From a virus: 28,658 nt of DNA. The DNA lies in IMG/VR virus record IMGVR_UViG_3300025286_000102, positions 1 to 28,658 of that record. The stretch is one strand, 5' to 3'. The position numbers and the translations under genes are program-made. Positions 10,195 to 27,110 of the stretch are shown piece after piece. Numbering within the stretch: the stretch's first letter is position 1; each line of letters begins with the position of its first letter. A model generated the notes under the pieces. That model searched no databases and had not been told where the DNA came from. It saw nothing but the letters and a program-made list of their open reading frames with translations.

Positions 10195-11088
10195 ATGCCA
10201 GGTGGAAATACTACAAGTTCTGCCTTGGCCGACAGCCTTGATGTCGTCGCTGCTTCAGCGCGTACCGTCAGGGAACAGGTAGGCCAAAACTTTGTAAGCT
10301 CAGTAGACCGGAAGCAGATGCCAATGGGCTCTGGCTCCTCATGGCGGGAGATCGACCTCTCAAAGATCACCGCCTCTTCAGTGCCGGAAAACACCAAGAT
10401 GGATAACCCGCAGCAGTTGGTGGACGCTGTCATCAGCGTAGAGCCCACTATGAGCGGCGTTCATATTATTCTGACGCCAGAGGCGCAGCAGTATGTGAGC
10501 AGCATGGTTGCAGCCCAATGGGGACAGCTAACCCAGAATGCCATCCAACGGAAGAAGGATAGGGACGGCCTCAACATATACGATGGCGCAACAGTAACCG
10601 GCGGCGGGACAGGGACTACCCTCAACAGCGGCATCGTATCGGCGATGGTAGCGCAGATTCAGGGAGATACCGACGAGTCCGCTCTGGAGACAGAGGAGGT
10701 ATTTGCATTCCTCCATGGGTTCCAGTTGCATGATATCCGCTCAGAACTGACATCTGGTGTCGGCACATACCCTCTCCCCGCTGGTATCACCTCTGACGCC
10801 TTCGCAAGGGGAGCTGGAGTAGCCCAGATGGTTGGCGGTGCGATAGTACGCCGTGATAACAACATCCAGGTGGATTCAACCCCAGACGCCCATGGCGGGA
10901 TTCACGCCAGGTCTGGGATCGTGCTCGTGGAGGTATCTGGAAAGCAGCGGGCATTCACCGAGAGCCTCTCCAACATGGCAGGGGCAACCGCACTGTGGCT
11001 CTACGACTGGTACGGATACCTGGAGCGCAGCGCAGGGAACCTGGTAAAGCGCATCCTCACTGATGCTACATCGCCAACCACAGGCTAA
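10195..11088 (+). CDS. Major capsid protein, HK97-like
   Basis: The 297-residue product is the shell subunit. It follows the scaffold directly, has the mixed alpha/beta composition expected of an HK97-type fold, and contains stretches typical of capsid proteins: a long helix region (SGIVSAMVAQI), an LHGFQLHDI-type segment near 175-185, and a conserved-looking end (RAFTESLSNMAG ... LYDWYGYLERSAGNLVKR). AAGGAG lies 8 bases before ATG 10195. There is no obvious N-terminal protease-cleaved delta domain and no neighbouring protease gene, so maturation probably relies on the separate scaffold. I cannot name the closest capsid family without a profile search. Confidence 0.78.
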   Translation: MPGGNTTSSALADSLDVVAASARTVREQVGQNFVSSVDRKQMPMGSGSSWREIDLSKITASSVPENTKMDNPQQLVDAVISVEPTMSGVHIILTPEAQQYVSSMVAAQWGQLTQNAIQRKKDRDGLNIYDGATVTGGGTGTTLNSGIVSAMVAQIQGDTDESALETEEVFAFLHGFQLHDIRSELTSGVGTYPLPAGITSDAFARGAGVAQMVGGAIVRRDNNIQVDSTPDAHGGIHARSGIVLVEVSGKQRAFTESLSNMAGATALWLYDWYGYLERSAGNLVKRILTDATSPTTG

Positions 11089-21994: not shown

Positions 21995-22012
21995 TTGAAG
22001 TGTAAACTTCAA
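21995..22012. repeat. Palindrome at the end of the 62-residue gene
   Basis: TTGAAGT (21995-22001) and ACTTCAA (22006-22012) are exact reverse complements with a 4-base loop; they overlap the stop codon of the minus-strand gene that ends at 22009. There is no T-run on the minus side. It could limit read-through or stabilise the upstream message. Confidence 0.5.
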
Positions 22013-22197
22013 AAGGGGAGATCGTCCGGTCCGTGCTCTTTATCCTCTCCCTCGGCGAACTGCGCGTACACCTCCTCCGCTTGGGCGTCTGCATAGTACC
22101 CCTCCCACTTCGCCTGTTCCGCCTCCTGCCTGCAATCCCAGCAGATGGGGTGATCGGTATCGACAGGGCCTTGGCACCATAGGCAGTGGTTGTTCAT
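22009..22197 (-). CDS. Zinc-ribbon protein with SSB-like acidic tip (62 residues)
   Basis: Residues C5-x2-C8-x10-C19-x2-C22 form a zinc ribbon, followed by an acidic helix (residues 24-52) and the end GPDDLPF. The last residues match the acidic-aromatic tip by which single-stranded DNA-binding proteins recruit replication and repair partners. ATG 22197 has a GGAGGTG site placed in the last codons of the gene before it. I infer an adaptor in phage replication or recombination. No nucleic-acid-binding fold apart from the ribbon is visible. It is the sixth gene of the leftward operon. Confidence 0.75.
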   Translation of the reverse strand: MNNHCLWCQGPVDTDHPICWDCRQEAEQAKWEGYYADAQAEEVYAQFAEGEDKEHGPDDLPF

Positions 22198-22633: not shown

Positions 22634-22945
22634 TTATTCCTCCCCGAACTGTATTTTCGACCAGGTCATACCGGATATCGGAATCCCTATCTGGCTTTCC
22701 AGCGCCTCGGAAATCCGAGTAGGTAGCACACCAGTCACTTTACTTTGGCCCTTCGGCCACCTACTACTAGTCTCGGCTGCGTGTACCATCCACCTGCCAG
22801 AGGCGGCGACCCGCTTCCCATATACTGAGAACGTGAACACCCTAGCCTGTGGCTGTATGGAGTGCCATGGGCCTGGTACCACTCCATGTGTGTTCCAGAT
22901 TTGCACCAAATAGACATCCGACGTTGTGGTTGATCTGTAACTCAC
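22634..22945 (-). CDS. Unknown protein (103 residues)
   Basis: I placed the start at GTG 22945 because GGAGGG lies 4 bases upstream and because starts further upstream would run deep into the preceding gene. The product is basic, with a beta-rich first half (VYLVQIWNTHGVVPGPWHS, FTFSVYGKRVAASGRW) that could be a small barrel, then a Ser/Gly/Pro-rich part and end KIQFGEE. It might bind single-stranded nucleic acid given its position after a recombination-type gene, but no motif proves it. Confidence 0.55.
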   Translation of the reverse strand: MSYRSTTTSDVYLVQIWNTHGVVPGPWHSIQPQARVFTFSVYGKRVAASGRWMVHAAETSSRWPKGQSKVTGVLPTRISEALESQIGIPISGMTWSKIQFGEE

Positions 22946-22961
22946 TATCCCTCCGTAGGTC

Positions 22962-23834
22962 TTATATGAACAGCTCCTCGGTAGTGTAGTCTGGCTCCTC
23001 CTCCGGGGCGTCAGGCGGCATGATGGTGACAGGCGCGAACACGTCCGCCGCTTGGGAGGCGTTATACTCATCGGCTAGAGCCTTGTTGATGGCTAGTGGT
23101 TTCAGGTTACATGCGCTCACAGAGCAGGTGTAAAATGGTGGATACGGCACCCTAGAGTTTTTCCCTACTCCTGCGGGCTGAAGCCTGTTTGGGCCATGAC
23201 CAGCCACTGGGCATAGCGGTATGAACAGCTCCTCGGTAGTTGCGTCCGAGTCGTGGTCGGCGGGCTTAGGCGGGGGTCCACTGGTGGCCGCATTAGGCGT
23301 GGGTACACTGGGTGGCGCTGACTCCATTTCCTCGTAGGGAGTGGCTTCATAACCAGCCAACACTGCCACCCATGCCAAGCACGAACGATAAGCCCTTGAT
23401 ATAGCACGAGTCTGAGCCATAGATTTCCGTGAAAATGTCGGTTCCTTTGCCCACCTCGGCTCGTCAGATGTCCCGCAAATGGAGTCACCACTCCCGACCT
23501 GACTATCGAATTTATCGAAAATCTTTACTCGTGCTACCCATGCGTTGGGCTCTTCTGTATCACGCTCAACAGGCCCATCTAGTAACGCTCGATATTCATA
23601 CGCCTTCCCAAGGTATTGCCAAGCTTCGACCTTTAGATAAACCGGCGCTTCTGGCCCGTGCCCCCGCAGACTAACCGCCCACTTGTCCTTCTGTTTTGCG
23701 ATGACGTTATTTAATTCCTTGGCAACAGATGCGGCAGTTGCCAATTCTCCAGCGAATCGATCCTTTGGCGTGATAGCAGATTCCGTAATCTCTCCAGTGC
23801 CTAGTGCCACTATCCCTGTAGTTTCGTTATTCAT
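22962..23834 (-). CDS. Recombination/annealing-type protein with zinc site and doubled acidic tip
   Basis: I chose ATG 23834, since GGAGAGAAGAG lies directly upstream; the longer start at 23918 adds residues that overlap the SWIM gene. Residues 1-170 contain YLKVEAWQYLGKAY, a Cys at CGTSDEPRW, and SMAQTRAISRAYRSCLAWV followed by AGYEATPYEEM, a pattern I know from phage single-strand-annealing or DNA-binding proteins encoded with recombination genes. After a Pro-rich linker comes TTEELFI (199-205), then a zinc site C208-x4-H213 ... C237-x4-C242, and TTEELFI again at the very end (284-290). The tip resembles the SSB C-terminal peptide. It overlaps the upstream gene by 8 bases. Confidence 0.7.
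   Translation of the reverse strand: MNNETTGIVALGTGEITESAITPKDRFAGELATAASVAKELNNVIAKQKDKWAVSLRGHGPEAPVYLKVEAWQYLGKAYEYRALLDGPVERDTEEPNAWVARVKIFDKFDSQVGSGDSICGTSDEPRWAKEPTFSRKSMAQTRAISRAYRSCLAWVAVLAGYEATPYEEMESAPPSVPTPNAATSGPPPKPADHDSDATTEELFIPLCPVAGHGPNRLQPAGVGKNSRVPYPPFYTCSVSACNLKPLAINKALADEYNASQAADVFAPVTIMPPDAPEEEPDYTTEELFI
22965..23240. repeat. 21-base direct repeat, 255 bases apart, in frame
   Basis: The 21 bases at 22965-22985 are identical to those at 23220-23240. On the minus strand both encode (T)TEELFI in the same frame, 85 codons apart; one copy ends the protein and the other lies before the zinc-binding part. A duplication with insertion of a module would explain it. Confidence 0.85.
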
Positions 23835-26669: not shown

Positions 26670-26790
26670 GGCGCAGAAGCCCCGCATAACCAGGCTGGTT
26701 TGTTTGCGCTGCAACCACCAGTGGGTGCCGAGGATTCAGATAGTCCGGCGCTGCCCACGGTGTGGCGTAATTAGCTGGGACAGACCTTGA
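26659..26790 (+). CDS. Zinc-ribbon peptide (43 residues)
   Basis: ATG 26659 follows AGAGGTG by 4 bases. Residues C15-x2-C18-x13-C32-x2-C35 form a standard zinc ribbon with basic flanks, so it could bind nucleic acid or the nuclease encoded next. Its TGA stop overlaps a TTG in the nuclease frame (26787). It is the first gene of the rightward nuclease operon. Confidence 0.75.
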   Translation: MIVKAQKPRITRLVCLRCNHQWVPRIQIVRRCPRCGVISWDRP

Positions 26791-26819
26791 CCGAGCCCGC
26801 TGCGCTGATTATCCGCGCA

Positions 26820-27110
26820 ATGACCGAGCGCGACTTGCAGGGGTTCGTTATTGAACTCGCCCGTTGGATGGGATACTCCCTCATTTACCACTCTTGGACC
26901 AGCATCCACTCGCCTGGAGGGTTCCCTGACCTCGTGCTATGCCGCCCAACCGACGGGAAGCTGCTCTTTGTCGAGCTGAAGCGCGAGGTTGGCAAGGTGA
27001 CGGTAACCCAGCAGCTTTGGCTTGATGGGCTACGGGCCTGTGGGTCGGCTGCTTACGTCCTGCGCCCTAGTGACTGGTACTCCGGGCATATCGAGGAGCT
27101 GTTACAGTGA
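26820..27110 (+). CDS. VRR-NUC family nuclease
   Basis: Stand-alone VRR-NUC proteins are small phage nucleases of the PD-(D/E)xK group, thought to cut branched DNA. From ATG 26820 the 96-residue product has the family start TERDLQGFVIELARWMGY, then the catalytic SPGGFPD (D37), VELK (E52, K54) and Q64/Q65, ending with VLRPSDW. The frame opens at TTG 26787, which overlaps the previous stop, and may start there. I prefer 26820 because family members start about 'MTExxLQ'; neither start has a clear ribosome site. Its end overlaps the next GTG (GTGA). Confidence 0.88.
   Translation: MTERDLQGFVIELARWMGYSLIYHSWTSIHSPGGFPDLVLCRPTDGKLLFVELKREVGKVTVTQQLWLDGLRACGSAAYVLRPSDWYSGHIEELLQ

Follow-up and report, generated by a model that had tools for sequence, protein, structure and literature searches.

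The 28,658-nucleotide stretch of viral DNA analysed here (the window; positions 1 to 28,658 of IMG/VR record IMGVR_UViG_3300025286_000102) contains a minus-strand gene whose product ends in the peptide TTEELFI, and the same peptide is present a second time inside the chain, directly ahead of a putative zinc site. How did one protein come to carry this motif twice, in which direction might it have been copied, and what could two copies do that one does not? The parts of the gene that bear on these questions are as follows.

22962–23834, minus strand: gene for the annealing-type protein, 290 amino acids, starting at ATG 23834 (phrog_19042, E 6e-12)
23319–23777, minus strand: core domain, residues ~20–172 (AlphaFold2 pLDDT mostly >90; conserved columns; RAD52 best in the PDB)
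23241–23318, minus strand: first linker, Pro/acid-rich, residues 173–198, ahead of the internal copy (low pLDDT)
23240–23220, minus strand: internal TTEELFI copy, residues 199–205, followed by CCG CTA TGC, the P-L-C of the predicted zinc site
23106–23213, minus strand: putative zinc ribbon CPVAGHGPNRLQPAGVGKNSRVPYPPFYTCSVSACN, ligands C-x4-H ... C-x4-C, residues 208–243 (homologous to the tail of relative L014)
22986–23105, minus strand: second linker, Pro/acid-rich at its end (PPDAPEEEPDY; low AlphaFold2 confidence)
22985–22965, minus strand: C-terminal TTEELFI copy, the last seven codons, with TAA directly after it
22943–22964, minus strand: stop codon, followed by the next gene's ribosome-binding site (GGAGGG) and GTG start, as read from the sequence

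The motif is encoded twice by identical DNA

Both copies of TTEELFI lie in frame in one minus-strand ORF and are encoded by the same 21 bases (codons ACT ACC GAG GAG CTG TTC ATA), and their start-to-start distance is 255 bp, or 85 codons; an earlier note on this DNA had reported the repeated peptide, its identical DNA and its spacing, and we confirmed the positions and the frame. This 21-mer is the sole exact direct repeat of at least 17 nt within the 28,658-base record, and the record holds no further copy of it at up to 3 mismatches. About 1e-4 repeat pairs of 21 nt are expected by chance in the record, and a chance origin was rejected on this value. Under the record's own codon usage the probability of identical codons, given the peptide, is ~0.0012, so the two copies are either of common DNA ancestry or have been homogenised; this supports the earlier reading of a duplication at the DNA level, and convergence on the peptide alone would not yield identical codons. 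The TTEELFI repeat is a real, non-random, one-off copy, and the copying was probably recent.

The protein is a likely Rad52-type annealing protein

The longest ORF of the gene runs from 23918 to 22962 on the minus strand (318 amino acids). Translation most likely starts at the ATG at 23834 rather than at the first ATG of the ORF, because a GAGAAGAG stretch precedes the former and because of the overlap with the stop of the upstream ORF. The genomic neighbours encode a primase-polymerase and an AAA_25 helicase, and the gene thus fits a replication-recombination region. A VRR-NUC endonuclease or resolvase-like gene (26787–27110, plus strand) adjoins the replication genes.

Residues 65–171 match the profile of phrog_19042, a phage protein family without an assigned function, with an E value of 6.1e-12 (PHROGs has no curated cut-off for family matches), and 60 of the 62 relatives scanned match the same profile, so the protein belongs to this family. 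An AlphaFold2 model built from 62 sequences has a confident core (residues 20–170; mean pLDDT 90 when the core is modelled alone) and a tail that is predicted to be disordered. In the model the core is made up of a helix, three long strands and a helix at 133–159 that carries an SMAQTRA..R motif and a family-conserved TPxEE. When its fold was compared with the PDB, human RAD52 chains came first (probability 0.96–0.99 for the best ones, E 3e-3 to 1e-2), a modest match with TM values of 0.2–0.4 and E above 0.001, and the matches among the viral structures in BFVD include RecT, ERF and Rad52/59/22 proteins. Members of the Rad52/Erf/Sak3/RecT superfamily (PMC11783212) have a core of beta-sheet, helix and beta-hairpin; the helix and beta-sheet core predicted here may be of that kind, but the protein has no significant sequence match to entries of Pfam, NCBIfam or the PDB. 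The two fold comparisons bear out the earlier description of an annealing-type protein, and we take it to be, in all likelihood, a Rad52-type single-strand annealing protein of a phage.

Homologues that have a common helical C-terminal domain are present in many Hymenobacter and Pontibacter genomes (L089–L168, and others), which suggests that the annealing-type gene of these bacteria is chromosomal and not confined to phages.

Relatives carry exchangeable zinc modules but not the repeat

The sequence between the two TTEELFI copies contains CPVAGHG...FYTCSVSACN. When this ribbon, without the tip, was aligned to the tail of relative L014 (CPACGGP...AFGACLDRECN), the score was well above that of shuffled sequences (Z = 7.0; 0/500 shuffles). 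The ligands are paired as two knuckles in both proteins, with spacing C-x4-H / C-x4-C here versus C-x2-C / C-x4-C in L014, and the ribbon has no Pfam match. Zinc binding is predicted from this Cys/His spacing, and the homology to the L014 ribbon strengthens the case for the zinc site that had been proposed earlier. Of the 87 non-redundant members of the family, 16 have zinc modules of several kinds C-terminal to the core, and the modules change state at least 10 times on a tree of the 87 cores that has weak branch support and on which the present protein is the longest branch. Among ~200 distinct relatives, post-core zinc modules are found in L003, L009, L023, L034, L060, L129, L253, L285, L328 and others; L003 consists of the core and a Cys module, and its record also encodes a homologue of the neighbouring helicase. 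Since such modules occur and change often in relatives that have no repeat, the ribbon appears to be one exchangeable tail module among many, and a duplication is not needed to explain where it came from.

The repeat itself sets this protein apart from the other sampled members of phrog_19042. The earlier note had proposed a search for homologues that stop at the first tip; among the ~200 distinct relatives none does so or contains TTEELFI, and repeated heptamers of any kind are likewise absent from them. Phage protein searches gave no close relative, nor did viral contigs sought through the neighbouring helicase and portal genes. No other IMG/VR protein ending in TTEELFI was found among the contigs searched, a set outside which near-identical records may lie; the sole IMG/VR match to TTEELFI is antisense within a helicase gene and was taken as chance. 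A search of ~300 genomes from the phylum to which the L129 genome belongs yielded one further strong homologue, which was uninformative. The TTEELFI duplication is seen in this record only.

Relatives of the phage were also sought through its probable capsid protein (10195–11088, plus strand), which has no PHROG match and is ~37–45% identical to proteins encoded on at least 80 viral contigs, most of them short; judged by sequence, these capsid relatives appear to be an uncharacterised virus group. An annealing gene is present in 1 of 24 records of capsid relatives (L253), with a zinc module and without the tip, and the record of L011, a further capsid relative, has neither a zinc module nor the tip.

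Extent and origin of the copy

Between the DNA that follows the internal copy and the sequence at the end of the gene (stop, ribosome-binding site, 3′ flank), identity was at or below chance. The 234 nt between the copies, compared with the 255 nt before them, gave a best local score within that of codon shuffles (P = 0.3), and a tandem duplication of a 255-nt unit was rejected because the inter-copy region is unlike the region that precedes it. On the 5′ side of the copies the linkers show weak identity, 19/33 nt (P = 0.0005 at that length and 0.01–0.3 at others), of which a common Pro/acid codon bias could be a partial cause. With no flanking identity 3′ and weak identity 5′, the copied piece is ~21 bp and possibly up to ~54 bp long, and its edge lies exactly at the last sense codon.

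The history that we favour, and judge on balance probable, is that a short docking motif was copied across an older zinc ribbon in a Rad52-type annealing protein of phrog_19042. According to this reconstruction the core would bind and pair single-stranded DNA, and the disordered tail would carry exchangeable modules, the ribbon here having an origin other than duplication. An in-frame, non-tandem DNA copy of ~21 bp would then have put the seven-residue linear motif on the other side of the ribbon, so that it would be displayed both ahead of the ribbon and at the free C-terminus.

As to the direction of copying, the internal copy could have come first, as a native border of the ribbon, and the C-terminal copy could have been templated from it to make a new protein end. 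In L014, whose own C-terminus has no tip, EEPLSIF directly precedes the ribbon at the place of EELFIPL here, so the internal copy, which had been regarded as the older end of the protein, is equally possible as an original part of the ribbon's border. However, this EE..F likeness requires a 3-residue gap, is based on one sequence and is absent from L003 and other zinc-bearing relatives, and we consider such a history unlikely, though the most credible of the alternatives.

In the history proposed by the earlier note, the first TTEELFI was originally the C-terminus; the protein then gained a zinc module, and a duplicate of the tip came to lie at the new end. A Pro/acid linker such as the one ahead of the internal copy often comes before real C-terminal tips, and deletion of the DNA between the copies yields a clean shorter protein with a TTEELFI end. 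However, the sequence downstream of the internal copy bears no likeness to the stop and 3′ flank of the gene, and no relative among the ~200 terminates at the internal position. Addition of the zinc module by duplication fares no better, since the inter-copy 234 nt do not match the preceding 255 nt, many relatives have zinc modules at this position but no repeat, and the ribbon is homologous to that of the tip-less L014. We regard this course of events as improbable.

Alternatively, the repeats might delimit a recombination cassette: their pairing, perhaps by the annealing protein itself, would excise the ribbon in frame and leave the same C-terminus, and the phage population would alternate between a long and a short form. 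The computed deletion product (loss of 255 bp, 85 codons) is an intact 205-amino-acid protein ending in TTEELFI, and the exact DNA identity and the multiple-of-three spacing fit as well, but every in-frame exact repeat shares these properties, no short form was found among the records covered, and we give this proposal little credence. Chance or an assembly artefact is the least credible origin of all, for although the repeat comes from one metagenomic virus record and was found in no second one, ~1e-4 repeats of this length are expected, both copies lie in open frame, and the end copy stops exactly before a proper ribosome-binding site.

Is TTEELFI a docking motif?

The C-terminal tip of SSB consists of acidic residues followed by a terminal P-F, as in DDDIPF. 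The tip of the present protein, PDYTTEELFI, is like it in that acidic residues precede a hydrophobic end and that the tail bearing them is predicted to be disordered, but it differs in ending in L-F-I and in having a second copy inside the chain; a terminal Pro-Phe behind an acidic stretch, or a close variant of this arrangement, is absent. With two glutamates and a final L-F-I instead of P-F, it is an SSB-like acidic tip, as the earlier note had it, in a loose sense. The bacterial beta-clamp-binding motif is Q-phi-x-[L/M]-[F/L] (PMC11139829); the L-F of TEELF matches at positions 4–5, but T stands for Q at position 1 and E for an aliphatic residue at position 2, and TEELF does not fit the beta-clamp consensus.

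Other members of the family do have ends of the SSB type. P-F or P-V ends with at least two acids before them occur in 5 of the 87 non-redundant members versus 0.1 expected from shuffled tails, and SSB-type C-termini (LDVPF, DDIPF, DDVPF) are found in relatives L032, L041, L059 and L067, with EDDIPF at the end of L041 and EDDVPF at that of L059. This enrichment makes C-terminal docking tips plausible for the family. The tails of annealing proteins are known for protein contacts. In Red-beta, for example, residues 178–261 make contacts with lambda exonuclease and potentially with SSB (PMC9512822).

Elsewhere in the window, a 62-amino-acid ORF (22009–22197, minus strand) behind a AGGAGGTG ribosome-binding site contains two CxxC pairs and ends in PDDLPF, a true SSB-type tip; it has no PHROG match.

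We infer that TTEELFI probably serves to dock a partner protein of replication or recombination, and the likely gain from having two copies would be avidity. Several points weigh against this explanation: the motif matches no established docking consensus, no homologue among those compared shares it, the internal copy lacks a free carboxylate and might act differently from the end copy, and the RAD52 fold match is modest, as given above.

What the locus may mean for this protein family

If a docking motif was indeed copied across an older ribbon, the locus would be a case in which a phage recombination protein gained a second copy of a short interaction motif from its own sequence. It also points to a so far unnamed family whose members are likely annealing proteins; zinc modules are swapped in their tails, some members end in true SSB-type tips, and the recruitment of such annealing proteins to replication forks becomes a testable question.
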